A DNA stretch of 64,000 bases, taken from the NCBI RefSeq assembly GCF_001570365.1, contig NZ_BBYK01000042.1, positions 1 to 64,000 of the forward strand, in the 5' to 3' direction. The first letter of the stretch is position 1. Each line of letters starts with the position of its first letter. The stretch comes from Microtetraspora fusca. GTDB lineage: Bacteria; Actinomycetota; Actinomycetes; Streptosporangiales; Streptosporangiaceae. The notes beneath the pieces were generated by a model. That model was not told the DNA's origin. It worked only from the letters and a program-made list of their open reading frames with translations, and did not search any database. The position numbers and the translations under genes were made by a program. Positions 51,635-61,925 of the stretch are shown piece after piece.

Positions 51635-52456
51635 TCAGAGACGGAAGTCGTCGGCGTGGTCCCGCGCCCATTCCGCGAACGTCTGGGCAGGCCGCCCGGT
51701 GAGCTTCTCGACGATGACAGAGGTCTCGGGGACGACGTCGACGCCCTCCGTCCACGCGCGCATGATCGCCTCCACTCCCATCGCGGGCATCGTCCTGCCC
51801 AGGTCGGCGCGCGCCTGTTCGGGGGTGACCACCTCGATCGGGATCGGCCTGCCGATGGCCGTACCGATGTGCCCGACCTGCTCGCGCAGGGTGAGCGCCT
51901 GCGGCCCGTACAACGTGTACGCCTGTCGTCCGTGCCCCCGCTCGGTCAGCGCCGTGACCGCGAGCGCGGCTATGTCCCGCTCGCTGACCGGAGCCGTCAG
52001 CGCCTCCGGGTACGGCAACCGCACCGCCTGCCCCTCCTTGATCGCCCGCATCCACCACCATCGGGTGTTGGTCGCGAACATCCCCGGCCGGATGAAGGTC
52101 CAGGACAGCCCGGACTCCTGCAGGGCCGACTCCACGACCCGATGGTCCCGAGCGATCGGATTGCGGTCGGCGCCGGGCTGCACGATCGCCCCGGACGACA
52201 ACAACACCACGTGCCGGACCCCGGCCGAACGGGCGGCCGCCACGAACTCGTCGATGCCCGCGGGTTTGGCGTAGAGAAAGACCTGTGACGCGCCCTCCAG
52301 TACGGCGGGCAACGTTTCCGGCATATCCAGATCCGCCGCCACATGGGAGGCGTCCGGCGTTCTGCTCGTCAGCCGGACCGGCACGCCCGAAGCGGTCAGA
52401 CCTGCGGCGACATGGCGGCCGACGCTCCCCCGGGCGCCGAAGACAACCGTGACCAT
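51635..52456 (-). CDS. NmrA-like NAD(P)H-binding reductase
   Basis: A 273-residue atypical short-chain dehydrogenase: N-terminal Rossmann motif VVFGARGSVGRHVA (3-16), then VLLSSGAI and the RPGMFATNTRWW segment of the NmrA/azoreductase-like group. The ATG at 52456 has GAGGAGG 9 nt upstream; the longer open frame upstream looks non-coding. Role unknown; it might serve as a redox sensor or quinone reductase. Its 5' side faces the diterpene operon. Confidence 0.83.
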   Translation of the reverse strand: MVTVVFGARGSVGRHVAAGLTASGVPVRLTSRTPDASHVAADLDMPETLPAVLEGASQVFLYAKPAGIDEFVAAARSAGVRHVVLLSSGAIVQPGADRNPIARDHRVVESALQESGLSWTFIRPGMFATNTRWWWMRAIKEGQAVRLPYPEALTAPVSERDIAALAVTALTERGHGRQAYTLYGPQALTLREQVGHIGTAIGRPIPIEVVTPEQARADLGRTMPAMGVEAIMRAWTEGVDVVPETSVIVEKLTGRPAQTFAEWARDHADDFRL

Positions 52457-53080
52457 CGTGTGGGGCCTCCTCTGATCCTCGGTGAGCAGCTTGACGAGTC
52501 GGGTGGGCAGGACCCGCCGGGTCTCGGGTGACGGCGAGTCGCCTCCGAGGATGTCCCGGACGAACCGCGGCACCGTGGTGGGCGCGAAGATGATCGCATA
52601 GGCGGCATTTCCGAGCGTACGGGGGGCGGGTGTCAACGGAACGGCCCGGCCCACCCGAACCCCGGTGCCCACTGTCGCGACGGGTGAACGGAGGGTGAGC
52701 TCACTTCCCCCTATTGGTGGCTCAACCATGACAATCTCCGCGATTTCTGCATGTCACTCAACAGATCACAAAATTGGTCAGTCCGACGACCTTGATTCGG
52801 ACGATTTGATCATGTGATACTGCCGCCAGGTGTCGATGATGACTGAGGGCATCTCGTAGCGTCATGCGGCTTGTGAGGCAAGGAAGAACCGGAGGTACCG
52901 CGGGCTGAAGAACGTCATGGCGGCCTGAACCGAGTACCGACCACGTACCGACCCACGTCAAAGCGCACTGGATGACGCGCCGACGGACTGTCCCGCGTCG
53001 CCTGAGCCGTCCTTGCCGGTCGGCGGGTGACCGCGGGTGCATGTGCGCCGGATGTGAATTCCTGCTGGGAGAACGCCCAA
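52457..53080. other. 624-bp divergent intergenic region before the diterpene operon
   Basis: An AT-richer island (52740-52825) holds GTCCG...CGGAC and ATCACA...TGTGAT dyad elements and a promoter candidate. Between 52860 and 52925 the minus strand can encode a short peptide (MTFFSPRYLRFFLA...) with no clear ribosome-binding site. No other gene recognised. Confidence 0.5.
52792..52821 (+). promoter_or_regulatory. Candidate promoter of the P450-terpene operon
   Basis: TTGATT (52792-52797), an 18-nt spacer and GATACT (52816-52821), inside a dyad-rich island. It would give a leader of about 250 nt. Confidence 0.35.
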
Positions 53081-54436
53081 ATGTCAACAGACGTCGTCGC
53101 GCCCCCACCCGAGGCGAGGACCCTGCCCTTCTACCGGGCCCTGGCCAAGTACACCCGCGACCCTATCCGGGCCTTCGAAGAGGCGGGGAAGCAGGCCGAG
53201 GGCAGGATCGTCCGGCTCAACATGGGCCCCTTCAAGCCCTACCTGGTGACGCACCCCGACCACGTCCAGCACGTGCTGCGCGGAAACTGGTCGAACTACG
53301 TGCGCGAGGGCATGTTCTGGGACCCGCTGACCTCGCTGTTCGGCGACGGCATCTTCTCCGACGGCGCGGGCTGGCAGGAGAGCCGCAAGATCGTCCAACC
53401 GCTGTTCACCACCCGGTACATCGACTCGCTCACCGAGCGCATGGCGTCGATCCTCGCCGAGCAGATCGAGGAGGAGATACGGCCGGGGGTGCCCTTCGAC
53501 GCCTTCACCATGGTGTCGAAGATCGTCCACCCCACGATCGTCCGGCTCTTCTTCGGCGACAAGATCTCGCGTGAGGACATCGCCCAGCTCGTCCCCGCGT
53601 ACGACACGGCCGTGACGTCGAAGGCGATCAGGCTGGTGCTGCCGTTCGTGCCCGAAGGTGTCCCGCTGCCCGGGGACAAGGCGTTCGAGCGGTCCATCAA
53701 GACGATCGACGAGGTCGCGTACGCGCGTATCCGCGAGGTCCGCCGCAACCTGGACGACGACCAGGACATCGTCTCGGCGCTGTGCCGTGCCCGCAAGGAC
53801 GAGCCCGGTGAGGCCGGCGACCGGAAGATCCGCGACGACCTCGTCGGCATGCACGGCGCCTCCACCGAGACGTCGGCGACGGCACTGACGTGGATCTGGC
53901 CGGTGCTCGACGCCCACCCCGAGATCGCGCAACTGGTTTACGAGGAGGTCGACCGGGTGGTCGGCGCGGGCCCGATCAGCCCCGCGCACCTGCCGGAGCT
54001 GCGCTATCTCCGGATGTTCCTGAACGAGATGCTCCGCCTGTACCCGGTGGGCTGGATCCTCCCCCGGAAGGTGGTGGCGGACGACGTCATCGGCGGGGTC
54101 CAGGTCAGGGCCGGCTCGACCGTCGTGCTCAGCCCCTACCTGACCCACCGGCTGCCGGAGTTCTGGGACCGCCCGCTGGAGTTCGATCCCGAGCGGTTCG
54201 ATCCGGAGAGGGAGGACCGCCGACACCGCTACGCCTACTTCCCCTATGGCGGCGGGCCGCACCAGTGCCTCGGGCCGTCCCTCTTCATGATGGAGGCCCT
54301 GCTGCTGGTGGGCGGGATCCTGAGCAGGTTCCGACCGGTTCTCGGCAACACGACCCCGATCGTGCCGAAGCTCGCCTCGACCCTGCGCCCCAACCAGAGC
54401 GTCCAGATGACCCTCGTGCCGATCGAGCGTTCCTGA
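53081..54436 (+). CDS. Cytochrome P450
   Basis: A 451-residue P450. Seen: I-helix GASTETS (259-265; Ser replaces the usual second Gly of the oxygen-binding AGxET), ExxR as EMLR (316-319), PERF near 371, and heme ligand Cys396 in FPYGGGPHQCLG. GGGAG lies 9 nt before ATG. First gene of a three-gene operon, 2 nt from the next gene, so it most likely oxidises the diterpene made by the two downstream enzymes. Redox partners are not encoded nearby. Confidence 0.93.
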   Translation: MSTDVVAPPPEARTLPFYRALAKYTRDPIRAFEEAGKQAEGRIVRLNMGPFKPYLVTHPDHVQHVLRGNWSNYVREGMFWDPLTSLFGDGIFSDGAGWQESRKIVQPLFTTRYIDSLTERMASILAEQIEEEIRPGVPFDAFTMVSKIVHPTIVRLFFGDKISREDIAQLVPAYDTAVTSKAIRLVLPFVPEGVPLPGDKAFERSIKTIDEVAYARIREVRRNLDDDQDIVSALCRARKDEPGEAGDRKIRDDLVGMHGASTETSATALTWIWPVLDAHPEIAQLVYEEVDRVVGAGPISPAHLPELRYLRMFLNEMLRLYPVGWILPRKVVADDVIGGVQVRAGSTVVLSPYLTHRLPEFWDRPLEFDPERFDPEREDRRHRYAYFPYGGGPHQCLGPSLFMMEALLLVGGILSRFRPVLGNTTPIVPKLASTLRPNQSVQMTLVPIERS

Positions 54437-54438
54437 TC

Positions 54439-55401
54439 ATGCACGAGCACCACCTCCGTACGGCGGGGAGCGCGGGCACGGCCGCGAAGGGGTTCGCGGC
54501 GGCGGCCGAGATGGGGCGGATCGCGGCGCTCGCCGCCGCGGGCGGGCGCGACCTGCGAAAGTGCGCGGACGCGTACGGCGACCTGTTTCTCGGGAAGCCG
54601 TTCGACCCCGGCTTCTTCGCCGCGCTGGCCCACGTCGGCGCGGCCGGCTCGCCCTGGGAGACGGCGGACCGGCTGCGGATCGTCAACCGCGCCGCGCTGT
54701 GGGTCTTCGCCGTCGACTGGCTGATCGACGTGACGGCGAAATCCGCCGACGACGTCGATCGGATCGTGCGCGACTGCCTCGCCGCGGCGAACGGCACGGC
54801 GGAGGCGGCCACGCCGCTCACCCGGCTTCTCGTCGACATCCGGGACGAGCTGGCCTCCGTGCCCGCGTTCGCGACCGGCGGCCCGGTCTGGAACGCCCAA
54901 CTCGAACGCATGCTGATGGCGATGGCCCGCGAGTGGCACTGGAACGCGGCGCGCGCCGAGACGGCCGACCCGGAGACAAGGGACGGCGAGGCGGCGGAGC
55001 GGGAGCCGATCCTGCCGGACCTGGAGGAGTACCTCGGCAACGCCGACGGCACCGGCTCCTCCTTCGTCAATGTCTCTCACTGGATCTTCACGGGCGGTCC
55101 GTGGACGCTGGAGCACCTCGACGAGCTGATGGCGATCAGCGCGGAGGTCCAGCGCTATCTCCGGCTGCTCAACGATCTCGCCACCTATCGGCGGGACGTC
55201 GGCTGGGGAGACGTGAACGTGCTGATGCTCGGCGTCGATCGCGCCGAGGTGTCGGAGCGGATGGCGCGGCTCGCGGAGCGCACCGGAGAGCTGCTCGAAC
55301 CGCTGCGGGACGTGTGCCCGCGCACGGTCGCCTACCTGGAATGCCAGGTCGGCTTCAACACCGGGTTCTACGGCGGCGCGGATTATTGGGGTGAGATGTG
55401 A
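54439..55401 (+). CDS. Class I terpene synthase-like protein
   Basis: A 320-residue alpha-helical protein of the terpene synthase fold. The NSE-type metal triad is recognisable as N245-D-L-A-T249-Y-R-R-D253 (Asp replaces Glu). The first Asp-rich motif is degenerate: D93-W-L-I-D97 followed by SADD at 102-105 instead of DDxxD. It would use the product of the class II cyclase encoded next, as in bacterial labdane-type pathways. It starts 2 nt after the P450 stop and overlaps the cyclase start (GTGA). Weak motif conservation leaves room for a non-canonical activity. Confidence 0.75.
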   Translation: MHEHHLRTAGSAGTAAKGFAAAAEMGRIAALAAAGGRDLRKCADAYGDLFLGKPFDPGFFAALAHVGAAGSPWETADRLRIVNRAALWVFAVDWLIDVTAKSADDVDRIVRDCLAAANGTAEAATPLTRLLVDIRDELASVPAFATGGPVWNAQLERMLMAMAREWHWNAARAETADPETRDGEAAEREPILPDLEEYLGNADGTGSSFVNVSHWIFTGGPWTLEHLDELMAISAEVQRYLRLLNDLATYRRDVGWGDVNVLMLGVDRAEVSERMARLAERTGELLEPLRDVCPRTVAYLECQVGFNTGFYGGADYWGEM

Positions 55402-57077
55402 GCATCGGCGACCTGGTTGTTCCGGAAAGCGCGGAGGCCCTCGCCGACGCGGCCGACGAGTTACTTGTCGGCCTCATGGCCCGGCCGTGGGGACAGGCCT
55501 CCCCGTCGGTGTACGAGACCGGTCGCCTGGTCACACTGACCCCCTGGCTCGCGGGGCACGCCGAGCGGGTCGAGTACCTGGTGCGCACGCAGCGCCAGGA
55601 CGGCACCTGGGGCGCCAGGGACGGGTACGAACTCGTCCCCACCCTCAGCGCGACGGAGGCGCTGCTGTCCGACCTGCTGCGCGGCGACGGGACCCATGAC
55701 GGGAGCGCCGGAGCGGCGGCGGGTCCCGGCGCGGTCGCCGACGCGGTGCGCCGGGGACTGGAGGCGCTGCACGACCGGCTCGGCGGCACCTCTTCGGACC
55801 CGGCCGCGACGGCCCGGCCGGCGCTGGACGCCTCGTCCCTGCCGGACATGCCGGCGCTGGACATGATCGTGCCGTCCCTCGTCCTGGCGATCAACGAGCA
55901 TCTCAACGAGCTGGAGCGCACCCCGGGCGCGGTGGTCGAGGCGGGCGGGCGGCGGCTCGGCCTGCCGTACGGCATGGGCATGGAACGGCTGGCGAAGGTG
56001 CGGGCGCTGGTCGCCTCGGGCGTGGACCTGCCGGAGAAGCTGGTGCACGCCCTGGAGATCGCGGGCGAGGTGGCCGGCGGCGCCGCGGCGGTCCGCCCCA
56101 CCCCGATCGGGAGCGTGGGCGCGTCACCCGCCGCCACCGCCGCCTGGCTGGGCGACCGCGGCCTGCTGGACACCACCGACCGCTCGCTGCGGCACCTGGA
56201 GGCGGTCGCGCGCCGGCACGGCGGTCCCGTCCCGGTCGGGTTGCCGATCACGGTGTTCGAGCGCGGGTGGGTGCTGAGCTGGCTGGCCCGCGCCGGCATC
56301 GACATCGACGCGCCGCCGGAGATGCTCGCGGACATGCGGGCGGCGATCGGCCCGTCGGGGACGCCGGCGGGGCCGGGCCTGCCGCCCGACGCCGACACCA
56401 CATCCGTCGCGCTGTACGCGCTCGCCCTGCTGGGCGTGCCGTGCGAGCCGTCCGGGCTGCTGGCGTTCGAGACGGGCACGCACTTCTGCACCTGGCCGGG
56501 GGAGGACGGCTTCTCCGTCAGCGTCAACGCCCACGCGCTCGACGCCTTCGGCCAGTACGTCCGCGCGCTCCCGGACGACGCCGCGCGGTACCTGCCGTAC
56601 GTCCAGAAGCTGTCGGCGCTGGTGCGCGACCACCAGCGGCCGGACGGGAGCTGGGACGACCGGTGGCACGCCTCGCCGTTCTACGCGACGGCGTGCTGCG
56701 CGCTGGCCCTGGGCGACTTCGGCGGCGAGGAGTCGGCGGAAGCGGTACGGCGGGCCGTGCGCTGGGTGCTGTCCACACAGCGCCCGGACGGCTCCTGGGG
56801 CCGATGGGAGGGGACGGCGGAGGAGACCGCCTACGCCATGCAGGTCCTGCTGCTCTCCCGCCTCCACGGGCAGGGAGCCGCGGCGGCGGAGGTCACGGAG
56901 GCGGCGGCGCGGGGCTACGCGTTCCTGCTGGAGGCCGGGGCCGACGCCGACGATCCTCCGCTCTGGCACGACAAGGACCTCTATCTCCCGGTGGCCATCG
57001 TGCGCGCCGCGGTGCTCGCGGCGCTGCACCTCGCTCGGACCGATCCAGTTGTTATGGAGTGGTACGGACAGTTATGA
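55398..57077 (+). CDS. Class II diterpene cyclase
   Basis: A 559-residue betagamma-fold cyclase. Acid motif D331-A-D333-T-T (DxDD variant; the last Asp is Thr, the likely catalytic middle Asp is kept). QW-type repeats QRQDGTW (65-71), QRPDGSW (413-419) and QRPDGSW (461-467). Such enzymes protonate geranylgeranyl diphosphate to labdanyl, halimadienyl or related diphosphates. The DxDTT form suggests a non-labdane outcome, but this cannot be read from sequence. No GGPP synthase is in the window, so the precursor must come from elsewhere. Confidence 0.88.
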   Translation: MSIGDLVVPESAEALADAADELLVGLMARPWGQASPSVYETGRLVTLTPWLAGHAERVEYLVRTQRQDGTWGARDGYELVPTLSATEALLSDLLRGDGTHDGSAGAAAGPGAVADAVRRGLEALHDRLGGTSSDPAATARPALDASSLPDMPALDMIVPSLVLAINEHLNELERTPGAVVEAGGRRLGLPYGMGMERLAKVRALVASGVDLPEKLVHALEIAGEVAGGAAAVRPTPIGSVGASPAATAAWLGDRGLLDTTDRSLRHLEAVARRHGGPVPVGLPITVFERGWVLSWLARAGIDIDAPPEMLADMRAAIGPSGTPAGPGLPPDADTTSVALYALALLGVPCEPSGLLAFETGTHFCTWPGEDGFSVSVNAHALDAFGQYVRALPDDAARYLPYVQKLSALVRDHQRPDGSWDDRWHASPFYATACCALALGDFGGEESAEAVRRAVRWVLSTQRPDGSWGRWEGTAEETAYAMQVLLLSRLHGQGAAAAEVTEAAARGYAFLLEAGADADDPPLWHDKDLYLPVAIVRAAVLAALHLARTDPVVMEWYGQL

Positions 57078-57079
57078 TC

Positions 57080-57104
57080 TTGTCACCATGCTCAAAGGTG
57101 ACAA
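57080..57104 (+). promoter_or_regulatory. Inverted repeat after the cyclase gene
   Basis: TTGTCACC-9 nt-GGTGACAA, a perfect 8-bp dyad directly after the cyclase stop codon. It could be a weak terminator or an operator for the conservon. Confidence 0.4.
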
Positions 57105-57148
57105 ATACTGACCTATTCGGACATTAGGTCTATAAATGCATAGTCGCC

Positions 57149-57178
57149 TTGAGGGGATTTAATATCTTTTGCTAGGGT
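57149..57178 (+). promoter_or_regulatory. Candidate conservon promoter
   Basis: TTGAGG (57149-57154), an 18-nt spacer and TAGGGT (57173-57178) in an AT-rich stretch unlike the surrounding DNA. The leader to cvnA would be about 105 nt. Confidence 0.45.
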
Positions 57179-57288
57179 ACCCCGGGTGCGGTGCGGCAAT
57201 ATTGGCGTGCCCATGTCGCGGCATAAAGTGGCATTCAGGGTAATTGCCGAGGAAATGTGCCGCGGGATTCTCACATATTGAGGTACCT

Positions 57289-59736
57289 ATGCGCTTCCGC
57301 AATTCGCGTGTAAAGACCAAGGTCACGGCCTTGCTCGTGTCGCTCACCGCGCTGTGGGCGTTCGCGGCGTGGGTGACGCTGCGGGAGGGCGTGGACCTGC
57401 TCGGTGCGACCACGATCGACAGCACCCTGGTCGAGCCCAGTGAGCCGCTCGTTTTCGAGTTGCAGCGCGAGCGGCGGATCTCCCTCGGGCGTCTCGGAAA
57501 CGCCGGGGCGTACTCCCGGCAGGAACTGCAGGAGCAGCGGGCCCGCACCGACAAGGCCCGGGCGGAGTACACGAGCTCGGCCAAGAGCGGGAACATCTCG
57601 TTCGCCGCGAGCGACGCGCTCCAGGAGAACGTCCGCGGCACGCTCCGCCTGCTCGACGGCCTGGCCGCGACCCGGACGGCGGTGGACGGCGGGCGGATCG
57701 GCCGGCAGCAGGCCGAGGACGCCTACAACGACATCACCGAGTCCTTCTTCCGAATGTACGAGTCCGTCGCCACCTTCAACGACGTCGACGTCGCGCGGGA
57801 CGGTCGCACGCTCAACGAGCTCTTCCGGGGCCGGGAGGCGCTCGCCCAGGAGGACGCGCTGCTCGCCGGCGTCTTCGCGACCGGACGGTTCACCGAGGCC
57901 GACCACCAGCGGTTCGCCGTCCTCGTCGGCGCGCAGCGCTACATCCTGGAGCACGCCGCGGTCAGCCTCCCCGAGGCGGAGCGGGCCGCGTACGACAGGT
58001 GGAGCAAGAGCCGGGCGGTCACCAGCCTGCGCAACATGGAAGACCAGCTCCTGCAGGCCCGCCAGGTGGAACGCCCGCTGACCGTCACCGACGCCCAGTG
58101 GCGCTCGGTGGTCGAGCCCGCGCTCGACGGCCTGCAGAAGATCGTCATCGACGGCGGTGACAGCCTCGTCGGCCGGGCCGTCCCGCTCGCGGTCGGCGTC
58201 ATCGTCCGCCTCGTCCTCGCCGGTGTCCTCGGCCTCATCGCCGTCGTCGCGTCGATCATTCTCGCGATCACCACGGCCCGCGCCCTGGTCCAGCAGCTGG
58301 AGAAGCTCCGCGACGCGGCGCTCGAACTCGCCCACGAGCGGCTGCCCAGCGTCGTCAACCGGCTCGGCCACGGCGAAAAGGTGGACGTCGCCGTCGAGGC
58401 GCCGCCCCTCCAGTTCGGCGGCGACGTCATCGGCCAGGTCGGCCAGGCGTTCAACGCCGTCCAGGAGACCGCGATCCGCACCGCGGTCGAGGAGGCCGAA
58501 CTGCGGCAGAGCATCCGCGACATCCTGCTCAGCCTGGCCCGCCGCACGCAGTCGCTCGTCCACCGGCAGCTCACGCTGCTCGACGTCATGGAGCGACGCG
58601 AGAACGACGAGGCCGAGCTGCGCGACCTGTTCCGCGTCGACCACCTCGCCACCCGCATGCGCCGCAACGCGGAGAACCTCATCGTCCTCTCCGGCGCATC
58701 CCCCGCCCGTGCGTGGCGCCGCGCCGTCCCGATGGTCGACGTGGTGCGCGGCGCGCTCGCCGAGGTCGAGGACTACACCCGGGTCACCGTGCTCCCGATG
58801 GGCGACGTCGAGCTGACCGGACGCGCGGTCGGCGACGTCATCCACCTGCTCGCCGAGCTGGTCGAGAACGCCGTGTCGTTCTCCCCGCCGTACACGATGG
58901 TCCAGATCAGCGGGCAGGTCGTGGCCAACGGCTACGCCATCGAGATCGAGGACCGCGGTCTCGGCATGACCGAGGAGGATCTGGCCGCGACCAATGAGCG
59001 GATCGCCGATCCCCCCGAGTTCAACCTGTCCAGCACGGCCCGCCTCGGCCTCTATGTGGTCAGCAAGCTCGCCGAGCGGCACGCCATCCGCGTGGTGCTC
59101 AAGAGCTCGCCGTACGGAGGGACGACGGCGATCGCCCTGCTTCCCCACGAGCTGATAGGCGACGGCATGAACCAGCAGAGCCCGTCCGAATCCGCGGCCG
59201 ACGACCGGCCGGCCGGTGAGAACGCCTTCGGCGCGGCGCGCGACGAGCAGGAGAACCCCTCGTTCCCCGTCTCGCGGATCGCTCTGGTGGGCGGCCGGGA
59301 GCCGTCGGTCCAGGCCGTGCGGACGATCCCCGACCCCGCGGCGTCCTCGGCCCCCGGGACGGCCGCCGACGCGCCCGACGTCACCGGCCCGCACACCGGC
59401 CCCTTCACCGGCCCGTTTACCGGGCCCGTGCCCGGCCCCCGACCGGAGCCGGGGCCGGAGCCGGGGCCGCGGCCGAACGACGAGCAGGGGACGCCGCCCG
59501 AGCCGGCCTTCACGCCGTCCGGCCTGCCGTTCAGGGTGCCGCAGGCGAGCATCGCCCCCGCGCTGCGCGACGACGCGCAGGCCGGAGCCGCCGACGAGGA
59601 CGACGACGACCGCTCCCCGGAGGAGATCCGCAAGATCATGGGGTCGTTCCAGAGCGGCACCCGGCGGGGCAGGTCCGACGCGTCGAAGCTGGTCGGCGAG
59701 GACACCGGCCCCTTCGACGGCCGGCCGTCGGCGTGA
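57289..59736 (+). CDS. cvnA: Conservon sensor kinase-like protein CvnA
   Basis: An 815-residue membrane protein. Helix 1 (about 12-28), a large extracytoplasmic nitrate/nitrite-sensor (NIT)-type helical domain (about 40-295), helix 2 (about 303-326), a HAMP-like linker, a helical region with SLVHRQLTLLD, and a GHKL ATPase domain (N-box ELVENAVSFSPP, then DRGLGMTEEDL). A disordered Pro/Gly-rich tail with TGPFTGPFTGP repeats follows. CvnA proteins start the cvn operon and resemble kinases, though a conserved phosphorelay is unproven. GAGG lies 5 nt before ATG. Confidence 0.92.
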   Translation: MRFRNSRVKTKVTALLVSLTALWAFAAWVTLREGVDLLGATTIDSTLVEPSEPLVFELQRERRISLGRLGNAGAYSRQELQEQRARTDKARAEYTSSAKSGNISFAASDALQENVRGTLRLLDGLAATRTAVDGGRIGRQQAEDAYNDITESFFRMYESVATFNDVDVARDGRTLNELFRGREALAQEDALLAGVFATGRFTEADHQRFAVLVGAQRYILEHAAVSLPEAERAAYDRWSKSRAVTSLRNMEDQLLQARQVERPLTVTDAQWRSVVEPALDGLQKIVIDGGDSLVGRAVPLAVGVIVRLVLAGVLGLIAVVASIILAITTARALVQQLEKLRDAALELAHERLPSVVNRLGHGEKVDVAVEAPPLQFGGDVIGQVGQAFNAVQETAIRTAVEEAELRQSIRDILLSLARRTQSLVHRQLTLLDVMERRENDEAELRDLFRVDHLATRMRRNAENLIVLSGASPARAWRRAVPMVDVVRGALAEVEDYTRVTVLPMGDVELTGRAVGDVIHLLAELVENAVSFSPPYTMVQISGQVVANGYAIEIEDRGLGMTEEDLAATNERIADPPEFNLSSTARLGLYVVSKLAERHAIRVVLKSSPYGGTTAIALLPHELIGDGMNQQSPSESAADDRPAGENAFGAARDEQENPSFPVSRIALVGGREPSVQAVRTIPDPAASSAPGTAADAPDVTGPHTGPFTGPFTGPVPGPRPEPGPEPGPRPNDEQGTPPEPAFTPSGLPFRVPQASIAPALRDDAQAGAADEDDDDRSPEEIRKIMGSFQSGTRRGRSDASKLVGEDTGPFDGRPSA

Positions 59737-59779
59737 CCGTCCCCCCAGCCGTTCACCCCGTAATAAGGAGATCTCCCCG

Positions 59780-60211
59780 GTGACGCAGAAGACCAGCGCG
59801 TCCGCCGACCTGGCCTGGTTGCTCGATGACCTGGTCGGCCGGGTGCGCGAAGCCGAACACGGCATCGTCCTGTCCACGGACGGCCTGCTCATGGCGTCGT
59901 CCAAGGGGCTGGGCGTCGACGACGCCGAGCACCTGGCCGCGGTGGCGGCGGGCGTCCAGAGCCTCGCCCGCGGCGCCAGCGAGCGGTTCGGCGGCGGCAA
60001 GATCCGCCAGACCATCATCGAGATGAAGTCGGCCTACCTCATCGTCGGCGTGGCCGGCCCCGGCGCCTGCCTGGCCGTGCTGTGCGCGCAGGACGCCGAC
60101 GTCGGCCTCGTGGCGTACGAGATGGCCATGCTCGTCGCCCGGGTCGGACAGTATCTGACCTCTCCCGCGCGAACCGTCGAACCCCCAGCCAGGAGCGAAG
60201 TGCCGCGATGA
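59780..60211 (+). CDS. cvnB: Roadblock/LC7 protein CvnB
   Basis: A 143-residue roadblock/LC7 protein (LAWLLDDLVGRVREAEHGIVLSTDGLLMASS; GACLAVLCAQDADVGLVAYEM). Family members regulate small GTPases; here it probably acts on CvnD. GTG start with AGGAG 9 nt upstream. It ends by ATGA overlap with cvnC. Confidence 0.95.
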   Translation: MTQKTSASADLAWLLDDLVGRVREAEHGIVLSTDGLLMASSKGLGVDDAEHLAAVAAGVQSLARGASERFGGGKIRQTIIEMKSAYLIVGVAGPGACLAVLCAQDADVGLVAYEMAMLVARVGQYLTSPARTVEPPARSEVPR

Positions 60212-60591
60212 ATATGGAGCGAAGTCCCGGAGACGCCCAGGAGGAGTGGCTGCTCGACGAGCCGACCGTCCGCCCGTACGTGATGACGCGCGGGCGCACC
60301 GACGCGAGGGGCAGGTTCGACCTCGTGACCATCGCGGTGACGATCCGCTCCACCACGGGAGCGGAGGTCGGTCTCGACCCCGAACACCTCACCATCGCCA
60401 GGCTGTGCCGCAGGCCCCTGTCCGTGGCGGAGATCGCCGCCCACATGGACCTGCCCGCCGGGATCGTACGCGTGCTGCTCGGCGACCTGCTCGAAAAGGG
60501 CTACGTCGCCGTCCAGCAACCCCAACCGGAGACGGACGTGCTCGACGAGAGAACTTTCAGGGCGGTGCTCGATGGCCTCCGGGCACTCTGA
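60208..60591 (+). CDS. cvnC: DUF742 protein CvnC
   Basis: A 127-residue DUF742 protein with a winged-helix-like body: EWLLDEPTVRPYVMTRGRT near the start, then LCRRPLSVAEIAAHMDLPAGIVRVLLGDLLEKGYV. It binds the other Cvn proteins in known conservons. Overlaps cvnB by 4 nt and cvnD by 20 nt. Confidence 0.95.
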   Translation: MNMERSPGDAQEEWLLDEPTVRPYVMTRGRTDARGRFDLVTIAVTIRSTTGAEVGLDPEHLTIARLCRRPLSVAEIAAHMDLPAGIVRVLLGDLLEKGYVAVQQPQPETDVLDERTFRAVLDGLRAL

Positions 60592-61171
60592 CCCGCCCAA
60601 GCTGCCCAAGGCGATCAAGCTGCTGATCGCGGGTGGCTTCGGGGTCGGCAAGACCACCATGGTGGGCGCGGTGTCGGAGATCCGCCCGCTGCGCACCGAG
60701 GAGACGCTTACCGACCGCAGTGTGGGCGTGGACGATCTGACCGGGGTGGAGACCAAGAACACCACCACCGTGGCCATGGACTTCGGGCGCATCACCATCG
60801 GCGACGAGTTCATGCTGTACCTGTTCGGCACGCCGGGCCAGGAGCGGTTCTGGTTCGTCTGGGACGAGCTCGCCCGCGGCGCCCTCGGCGCGGTGGTGCT
60901 CGCGGACACCCGCAGGCTCGCCGACTGCTTCCCCTCCGTGGACTACTTCGAGCGCAGGGGCACGCCGTTCGTCGTGGCCGTCAACTGCTTCGACGGCACC
61001 CCGCAGTACGAGCTCGACGAGGTGAAGCTCGCGCTCAACCTCGGCTCTGCGGTCCCGGTGCTGCTGTGCGACGCGCGCAGGCGCGAGTCCGGCAAGGAAG
61101 TGCTGATCACCCTCATCAAACACGCGTACAGCAGGCGCCCGGCCGCGGCCAAGGAGGCCTCGGTCCGCTGA
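60572..61171 (+). CDS. cvnD: Small GTP-binding protein CvnD
   Basis: A 199-residue GTPase of the MglA/CvnD type: P-loop GGFGVGKTT (21-29), switch region DDLTGVETKNTTTVAMDFG, G3 variant LFGTPGQERF, and NCFDG in place of NKxD. In Streptomyces conservons this is the GTPase output, assembled with CvnB and CvnC at the membrane. It closes the four-gene operon. Confidence 0.95.
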   Translation: MASGHSDPPKLPKAIKLLIAGGFGVGKTTMVGAVSEIRPLRTEETLTDRSVGVDDLTGVETKNTTTVAMDFGRITIGDEFMLYLFGTPGQERFWFVWDELARGALGAVVLADTRRLADCFPSVDYFERRGTPFVVAVNCFDGTPQYELDEVKLALNLGSAVPVLLCDARRRESGKEVLITLIKHAYSRRPAAAKEASVR

Positions 61172-61241: not shown

Positions 61242-61925
61242 ATGACCTCGCCGCGGCTCACCCTGTTCGCCGTCATCCTCACCTTCGGCACGGGATCGGT
61301 GGACGCGGCGAGCTTCGTCCGGCTCGGCGGGGTCTTCAGCAGCGTGATGACCGGAAACCTCGTCGTGGCCGGGTCCGCGATCAGCAGCGAGTCCCTCGAC
61401 ACGGCGCTGCACACCGTCGTCGCGCTCGTCGGATACGTCATGGGGGCCGCCCTCGGCACGCACGTCGCGGGCCGGCCCCGGCCGGACGAGCCCGTCTGGC
61501 CGGGCCGGGTCACCGTCACCCTGGCGATCGAGCTGGGAGTGATCGCGTGCTTCGCCCTCGGATGGGAGCTGGCGGGGGAGAAGCCGGGGATCGTCGCCGA
61601 GCACGTCCTGCTCGCGCTCGCGGCGCTGGCGATGGGCATGCAGAGCGCGGCGATGCGCGGCCTCGGCGGGCGGGCCGCCCTGTCCACGACGTACCTCACC
61701 GGCACCCTGACCGGGGTGGTGGCCGCCCTGCTCACGCCCCGGGAAGGCGCGCGGTTCGACGTGCCCGGCATGGCCATCCTGGCCGCCCTCACCGCCGGGG
61801 CCGCCGCCGGGGCGGCGTTCGTCTCCTTCGCCCCGGCGTTCCTTCCGGCCATCCCCCTGACCACGCTCACGCTGGTCGTCGTACTCGCCTTGTTCACCGG
61901 ACCGCCCGGCGCGGCGGCGGGGTGA
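61242..61925 (+). CDS. DUF1275 (YoaK-family) membrane protein
   Basis: A 227-residue polytopic protein with about six helices. The family signatures GSVDAASFVRLGGVFSSVMTGN near the start and MQSAAMRGLGGRAALSTTYLTGTLTG in the middle are clear. Function unknown for the family. AGGTAGGAA precedes ATG. It follows the conservon after 70 bp and may be read through. Confidence 0.9.
   Translation: MTSPRLTLFAVILTFGTGSVDAASFVRLGGVFSSVMTGNLVVAGSAISSESLDTALHTVVALVGYVMGAALGTHVAGRPRPDEPVWPGRVTVTLAIELGVIACFALGWELAGEKPGIVAEHVLLALAALAMGMQSAAMRGLGGRAALSTTYLTGTLTGVVAALLTPREGARFDVPGMAILAALTAGAAAGAAFVSFAPAFLPAIPLTTLTLVVVLALFTGPPGAAAG

Follow-up and report, generated by a model that had tools for sequence, protein, structure and literature searches.

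A predicted diterpenoid operon of Microtetraspora fusca co-varies with the sensor half of the conservon beside it

Introduction

Why should a diterpenoid pathway be kept beside a G-protein-like signalling system? The question is raised by a locus of Microtetraspora fusca (Streptosporangiaceae), in which a three-gene biosynthetic operon is followed, in the same direction, by a conservon, i.e. a cvnA-B-C-D gene set. The window, that is, the whole stretch of 64,000 nt analysed here (contig NZ_BBYK01000042.1 of assembly GCF_001570365.1, positions 1 to 64,000), is part of contig C41 of an assembly of 9.02 Mb. The operon consists of three open frames on the forward strand, encoding a cytochrome P450 (53081..54436, 451 aa; Pfam p450, 3e-70), a class I diterpene synthase of the type of Sat1646 from Salinispora (54439..55401, 320 aa; Terpene_syn_C_2, 4.7e-9) and a class II diterpene cyclase with a GTG start (55398..57077, 559 aa; SQHop_cyclase_C, 1.2e-15). 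The original prediction, made from the sequence letters, had drawn these genes as one compact P450-class I-class II unit, and its coordinates (53081-57077), its frames, the 2-nt gap between P450 and class I and the 4-nt overlap between class I and class II were all reproduced. The limits of that unit stand for the three co-directional genes but not for the end at 57077, as the conserved unit also takes in the conservon at 57289-61171. Taken alone, the three enzyme genes add one more member to a known pathway; what is new is the seven-gene locus with a co-varying sensor. Among the papers listed by literature searches (for the widest, the first 20 of 323), none is by title and abstract about a diterpenoid operon-conservon locus, most subscription journals lying outside their scope.

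The nearest homologs of the class I gene come from Microtetraspora sp. NBRC 16547, M. niveoalba and M. glauca (75-78% identity), and the gene was present in four of the four genomes searched in Microtetraspora, the window's own included. Against three other Microtetraspora, the ratio of nonsynonymous to synonymous substitution rates (dN/dS) of the P450, class I and class II genes is 0.25-0.36.

Results

The operon and the conservon form one locus in two families

The gene order and domains downstream of the operon, on the same strand, are those of a conservon. That is, cvnA (57289..59736) encodes a membrane sensor kinase-like protein with NIT (PF08376, 9.5e-44) and HATPase (PF02518, 2.2e-12) domains, cvnB (59780..60211) a roadblock/LC7 protein (PF03259, 6.6e-24), cvnC (60208..60591) a DUF742 protein (PF05331, 5.6e-34) and cvnD (60572..61171) a Ras-like small GTPase (PF03029, 1.2e-34), 70-95% identical in linked loci. 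Neighbourhoods of Sat1646-like class I genes were taken from two families (f1 and f37); these 64, with the window, gave 65 loci, and all seven genes were present, in the order P450-I-II-cvnA-B-C-D and co-directional, in 55 of them, window included. Among these neighbourhoods, L131, whose class I protein is 97.9% identical to Sat1646, carries all seven genes. The ten incomplete loci are of several kinds: L010 is ended by the contig; in L132, likewise ended by the contig, class II precedes class I; L047 and L049 are without P450 and have cvnA reduced to a C-terminal piece; L059 and L135 are rearranged; and L061, L074, L075 and L077 hold only a class I paralog and a GTPase. In these last four, the paralog has GD for ND in the second metal motif and a worn C-terminus, with the CvnD-like GTPase adjoining, and no homolog of the window P450, class II or cvnA was found in the 20 kb around it.

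In the window's family, class I homologs (E<=1e-20) occur in 204 of 341 genomes and 28 of 68 genera, and the CvnA sensor domain (E<=1e-30) in 217 of the 341; 200 genomes have both, 4 class I only, 17 the sensor only and 120 neither. A class-wide draw gave class I homologs in 19 of 394 genomes, 18 of them in the window's family (own genome included) and one in f37. The latter is presumably Micromonosporaceae, as it holds the Salinispora-like genome; 173 of its 354 genomes have class I homologs at E<=1e-12, and by a count of the matches listed 146 of these come from one genus. Among the matches listed for f37, 120 genomes had a position for both class I and the sensor, and in 110 of these the sensor followed class I on the same strand at a distance of at most 5 kb (median 2698 nt). 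The ten exceptions among the matches listed include three with both genes within 5 kb in another order or strand, as well as G954 and G909, in which a linked copy exists and another copy was listed.

A counter-selected sample was made of 20 sensor-selected loci for which no sensor was listed beside a Sat1646-like class I gene, a narrow sample with 19 loci from one genus (g39). Even there, a P450 homolog lay beside the conservon in 20 of 20 loci (partial in L156) and a class II homolog in 19, and three loci were complete for the seven genes. Five of the other 17 were opened (L150, L151, L154, L155 and L157); L150 was inspected as a translation, and Pfam matched a terpene synthase in each of the other four. 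That of L151 is distantly Sat1646-like (37%) and, like those of L154 and L155, which adjoin cvnA, lies on the opposite strand; that of L157 lies upstream of P450. Class I can thus be replaced beside a kept P450, class II and conservon.

Elsewhere in the same genome, none of the other terpene synthase matches (0 of 5 loci, 4 genes) has a cvn homolog closer than 1.5 kb, and none of the other CvnA genes (0 of 6) has the window P450, class I or class II, or a homolog of them, at that distance. Linked CvnA copies were told apart by their linkage and by their bit scores to the window CvnA, which are 615-1329 for linked copies (the window itself aside) and at most 473 for own-genome paralogs.

Enzymes and sensor half diverge together beside a conserved relay

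Between the window and a locus from another genus (L046), identity is 49% for P450, 54% for class I, 65% for class II and 45% for the CvnA sensor, versus 96% for the CvnA kinase half, 87% for CvnB, 95% for CvnC, 95% for CvnD and 87-95% for three upstream genes; no counterpart of the gene at 51635-52729 was seen in L046. The diverging sensor half, as delimited by identity comparisons between loci, corresponds to CvnA residues 41-300 (57409..58188, forward strand). The same division recurs in six disjoint diverged pairs with a kinase half of at least 94% identity (window/L046, L053/L060, L044/L067, L153/L163, L140/L142 and L162/L167): P450 is at 46-51%, class I at 37-58% where comparable, class II at 55-66% and the sensor at 43-51%, with the kinase half at 96-99%, CvnB at 88-98% and CvnD at 95-98%. 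In other pairs both parts are kept, as in L139/L142 (P450 97%, class I 91%, class II 92%, sensor 90%) and also in L060/L078, L154/L158 and L153/L167.

Over 38 pairs with a kinase half of at least 95% identity, sensor identity correlated with the mean of P450 and class II (r 0.957), as against 0.20 with CvnD and 0.28 with the kinase half. Given CvnD, the partial correlations over 1830 pairs were 0.69, 0.53 and 0.51 between the sensor and P450, class I and class II, respectively; the corresponding values for the kinase half were 0.26, 0.27 and 0.34. Mirror-tree correlations computed without distance control (0.50-0.66) were uninformative. Moreover, the nearest neighbour by sensor was the nearest by enzymes in 47 of 76 loci and the nearest by kinase half in 19 of 76. 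No mismatched combination of sensor and enzymes was seen among pairs of the 76 loci: sensor identity reached at most 57% when the enzymes were below 60%, and did not fall under 83% in the eight pairs with enzymes at 85% or more.

Polymorphic ligand-receptor loci show a pattern of this kind. In comQXP of Bacillus and agr of Staphylococcus, for instance, the synthesis genes and the receptor's sensor half vary together while the kinase half and relay are conserved. The window would differ from these analogues in having cyclic-diterpenoid enzymes instead of a peptide, and a Ras-like GTPase relay; its ligand is proposed from the pattern.

Unlinked conservons of the same genomes as controls

To allow for the possibility that sensor domains change quickly in general, the linked conservon was set against unlinked ones from the same genomes. 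Control pairs were reciprocal best matches by kinase half (>70%); for most genomes a part of the listed CvnA places was used, and CvnA strands were set by similarity to the window CvnA. In 22 unlinked ortholog pairs from five diverged genome pairs, the sensor was 72-98% identical (21 of 22 at 82% or more) and the kinase half 88-100%, versus 43-51% and 97-99% for the linked conservon of the same genome pairs. Pair by pair, control sensors stood at 88-93% (six) versus 45% for the linked one in G000/G083, 94-98% (four) versus 51% in G081/G068, 72-89% (six) versus 43% in G008/G007, 87-95% (four) versus 43% in G153/G185, and 87-88% (two) versus 47% in G954/G951. G909/G951, which shares a genome with the last pair, gave 86-92% (three) versus 48%, and G954/G909 is a pair with conserved enzymes, whose linked sensor (90%) lay within the range of its controls (88-96%).

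Boundaries of the diverged cassette

The diverged part forms an exchangeable cassette that comprises the three enzyme genes and the 5' third of cvnA (53081..58200, forward strand, ends approximate), as delimited by sliding DNA identity in five diverged pairs, a residue profile and fourfold degenerate sites. On the right, sliding identity recovers at the second transmembrane segment (TM2) of CvnA in all five pairs, and the residue profile shows CvnA 41-300 diverged and residues from 301 onwards conserved. On the left, three pairs have a flank that can be aligned, and in these identity drops no more than about 0.8 kb ahead of P450; window/L046 differs there by a gene, and the flank of L139/L140 is not alignable. 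Between the window and L046, fourfold sites are the same at 61 of 139 in P450, 130 of 241 in class II and 34 of 69 in CvnA 41-300, and beyond the edge at 169 of 179 in CvnA 341-640 and 107 of 114 in CvnD. The divergence of fourfold sites over the entire cassette means that old alleles have been exchanged, and the pattern is not one of amino acid change alone. Selection on the sensor amino acids alone was rejected on the same ground.

The enzymes and their predicted product

The original prediction had seen here a labdane-related pathway, in which a class II cyclase, a class I enzyme and then an oxidase act in turn, and homology agrees with this assignment. Among PDB sequences, the class I protein comes closest to Sat1646 (7e4n, 5.9e-75), a Salinispora synthase that converts copalyl diphosphate (CPP) to isopimara-8,15-diene and has the metal motifs EDWQVD and NDLASYERD (PMC9814573). 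Both class I metal motifs are present in the window protein, as D93-W-L-I-D97 (VDWLID) and N245DLATYRRD253; the first and last Asp of D93WLID97 are kept, and the second D is W as in Sat1646. The window motifs are therefore of the same kind.

The catalytic dyad of Sat1646 is Tyr183-Tyr288 (PMC9814573). It is incomplete in the window protein, which has Thr at the Tyr183 place and Y311 at the Tyr288 place. Across 69 class I sequences, window included, Tyr288 is kept in 65, and the Tyr183 place holds F in 22, L in 17, T in 8, C in 6, R in 4, Y, I and A in 3 each, V in 2 and S in 1. The Y183F exchange in Sat1646 blocked formation of compound 1, with isopimara-8(14),15-diene made instead, and Y183A lowered the yield of compound 1 (PMC9814573); the residue at this place therefore probably sets the product. 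The Thr found there, by alignment, is a better hint of a different product than the DWxxD and DADTT variants.

For class II, the best PDB match is PtmT2 (5bp8, 2e-115), followed by Tpn2 (4e-68). Its acid motif is D331-A-D333-T-T, with D333 as the central acid Asp. The labdane/clerodane switch lies at PtmT2 D502/Tpn2 G485 (PMC9814783), and since the window protein has Asp525 at this place, a product of labdane type is predicted. Normal CPP stereochemistry may be inferred from SaCPS, the class II protein being 50% identical to that of L131. Five of 80 class II sequences (L126, L129, L139, L141 and L142) have Gly at the switch, the clerodane-type residue of Tpn2, and the same five loci have TGL, AAV or VAG at class I residues 183-185, combinations absent from other loci; a changed skeleton is possible in these. 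The switch place has no residues in L058 and is broken in L137.

Class II is in two pieces in L137 and L058, and class I is broken by one in-frame stop in G1011 (L137) and in G1016. Broken class I or split class II in G1011/L137, G1016 and L058 points to decay of the locus in some lineages. G800 holds two complete seven-gene loci (L126 and L127).

The Cys ligand and ExxR are kept in 77 of 77 P450 sequences, window included; a Phe to Tyr change occurs in the window alone (1 of 77). A Micromonospora makes isopimara-2-one-3-ol-8,15-diene (PMC4584356), and oxidised isopimaranes therefore exist in that genus.

It had also been proposed that motif variants in all three enzymes point to a non-standard product. 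This did not hold: DWxxD occurs in Sat1646 itself, DxDTT in 74 of 80 class II sequences, window included (the others being DADTS in 3, DADST in 2 and DADSS in 1), and His for Arg in the P450 haem loop in 75 of 77 sequences, i.e. family-wide. The variants were also rejected as a sign of a new product because Sat1646 and the Salinispora-like copy, whose class II (L131) has DADTT, share them.

The statement that no geranylgeranyl diphosphate (GGPP) synthase is encoded nearby was borne out, as none of the six polyprenyl synthase matches of the genome lies on the 411-kb contig C41. A polyprenyl synthase lies near 14 of the 64 class I-selected loci, near 15 of the 20 sensor-selected ones (counts that rest on the query sequences PT_L081 and PT_L085, and for L157 on Pfam) and not near the operon of the other three Microtetraspora, so that GGPP synthase was rejected as a core member and is an optional neighbour of the locus. 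One 678-aa frame of the same genome (C68, 4142-5779, reverse strand; L005/L083) matches both polyprenyl synthase and terpene synthase models, with the prenyltransferase part N-terminal; the order in fungal fusions is the reverse.

The closest known operon is terp1/sat of Salinispora (SaDTS/Sat1646, SaCPS/Sat1645 and CYP1051A1), in which these three kinds of gene likewise adjoin and the motif variants of class I and class II recur. The Salinispora-like L131 has the gene order of the window, conservon included, with 43% identity in P450, 48% in class I and 50% in class II. The words conservon, GTPase and roadblock are absent from the main text of the 2021 sat paper (PMC9814573). With Thr for Tyr183 and Gly for Asn182, the window class I would be an enzyme related to Sat1646 but not the same one. 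In the stt cluster of Streptomyces, Stt4548 makes isopimara-8,15-diene from CPP (PMC9814573); that cluster (Stt4548, Stt4542 and a GGPP synthase) differs from the window in a class I match of only 1.3e-13, a canonical DDCAD motif and a GGPP synthase within the cluster.

Putative promoters and neighbouring genes

A putative promoter of the biosynthetic operon, found by consensus match, lies at 52792..52821 on the forward strand (TTGATT at 52792-52797, 18 nt, GATACT at 52816-52821). Its block, TTGATCATGTGATACTGC, is identical in four Microtetraspora, and the -10 part, GATCATGTGATACTTC, also occurs upstream of P450 in L042, L045, L046 and L055. A putative conservon promoter, conserved and matching the consensus, lies at 57149..57178 on the same strand (TTGAGG, 18 nt, TAGGGT with a TGC extension). 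The gap between class II and cvnA shows the pattern TTGAG-N17/18-TGCTAgGGT, with TGCTA[AG]GGT in 38 of 76 gaps versus a mean of 0.1 in shuffles; TGCTAnnGT was found in none of 77 stretches upstream of P450. The two halves of the locus, judging from these blocks, can probably be expressed separately.

A DUF1275 gene follows cvnD at 61242-61925; among 44 loci it was found in L007, L009 and L046 and not in L008. Near kin of the linked conservon also lie away from class I, at G954:C3:112236-114569 (L214, 744 bits to the window CvnA) and G909:C31:479206-481533 (L217, 693 bits).

Discussion

The resemblance of the co-divergence to polymorphic ligand-receptor loci leads us to propose that CvnA senses the diterpenoid. 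We hold it about evenly balanced whether the locus makes a diterpenoid and also carries the system that most likely senses it, with CvnA as the sensor. GGPP would be supplied from elsewhere in the cell. Asp333 of class II would protonate it, closure giving CPP; the DWLID and NDLATYRRD motifs of class I would hold the diphosphate with Mg2+, and ionisation and formation of the third ring would lead to an olefin of the isopimaradiene type; the Thr at the Tyr183 place of Sat1646 probably shifts the final proton loss. The P450 would then add oxygen to the olefin, and the product would probably be an oxidised diterpenoid akin to those of pine resin. The NIT sensor of CvnA, outside the membrane, would have its state relayed via CvnB and CvnC to the small GTPase CvnD, which would in turn alter gene expression, as pattern and precedent suggest. 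Enzymes and sensor would move between strains as one cassette while the kinase half, roadblock protein, DUF742 protein and GTPase stay, as one would expect if every sensor allele fits the diterpenoid produced by its own locus. The outcome would be a pheromone-like circuit with chemical variants.

Several observations weigh against a sensed diterpenoid. The compared pairs are not phylogenetically independent, the diverged ones comprising six disjoint pairs. G143/G144 is a weak case, with control sensors at 59-69% and the linked one at 51%, and for the pair within Microtetraspora (G000/G003) the controls are at 73-87%, with the linked sensor, at 70%, only a little lower. The fourfold step within CvnA is softer in L139/L140 (24 of 63 versus 119 of 175). 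A strict one-clade test of the linked CvnA proteins was rejected, requiring two changes, with five long-branched paralogs inside the group. With two conserved promoter-like blocks, the two halves of the locus need not be co-transcribed. NIT domains are named for nitrate and nitrite. Furthermore, the sat paper reports fermentations of its Salinispora strain in which diterpenoids went undetected (PMC9814573).

The strongest alternative, somewhat doubtful in our view and still to be taken seriously, is that this is an ordinary biosynthetic operon whose conservon senses an outside cue, the sensor half being a passenger of recombination that ends in the conserved CvnA kinase half. Silent sites are diverged over the whole cassette, CvnA residues 1-40 included, and the exchange of old alleles means that hitchhiking remains the main rival; the sensor lies between class II and the kinase half, which is the nearest strongly conserved sequence on the right, and could simply be carried along. 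Conservons beside gene clusters are also known. That is, Cvn8 represses an adjacent lanthipeptide cluster (PMC13343842) and fkmR1-4 is a conservon in the frankiamicin polyketide cluster (PMC4383371); Cvn8, Cvn9 and fkmR1-4 share cvnA-B-C-D order and domains with the window and are the precedent for such a position. Against a passenger sensor stand the lack of any mismatched pair at the 76 loci (sensor at most 57% with enzymes below 60%, at least 83% with enzymes at 85% or more) and a linkage kept across two families. An accessory role of the P450 in the conservon was considered and rejected: according to PMC13343842, as far as that account goes, the P450-type accessory CvnE goes with a CvnA lacking a sensory domain, whereas here CvnA has the NIT domain and the P450 lies upstream in the terpene operon.

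Alternatively, the locus may serve competition, the diterpenoid being an antibiotic or repellent under diversifying selection and CvnA sensing injury or competitors' compounds, so that both diversify. The high divergence of enzymes and sensor would fit, as would the loci in which the Sat1646-like class I is absent or replaced by a distant terpene synthase, but such a model does not require matched co-exchange, and we consider it unlikely. A chance association of conservon and terpene genes, preserved by common descent, for which the separate promoter-like blocks of the two halves might speak, is very improbable and already disfavoured by linkage in 110 of 120 genomes (among the matches listed), 55 of 65 loci and 19 of 20 counter-selected loci, as well as by the 0 of 5 other terpene synthase loci and 0 of 6 other CvnA genes of the genome that show such an association.

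If the diterpenoid is indeed the signal sensed by CvnA, the locus would extend to a diterpenoid pheromone family in hundreds of actinomycetes, which we put forward as a tentative though quite possible picture: each strain would make its own cyclic diterpenoid and carry a matched extracellular CvnA half on a conserved Ras-like GTPase relay, and cassettes exchanged across genera would yield chemical 'dialects'. The pairing matters because a diterpenoid pathway has been kept beside one particular G-protein-like system in two families, and because the sensor half is exchanged along with the enzymes. According to PMC13343842, the ligands of CvnA sensors are still to be tested; the role of these diterpenoid operons and the ligand of the CvnA sensors now become one testable pair, a product and its matching sensor. 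If true, this would propose an organic ligand class for the NIT sensors of conservons.

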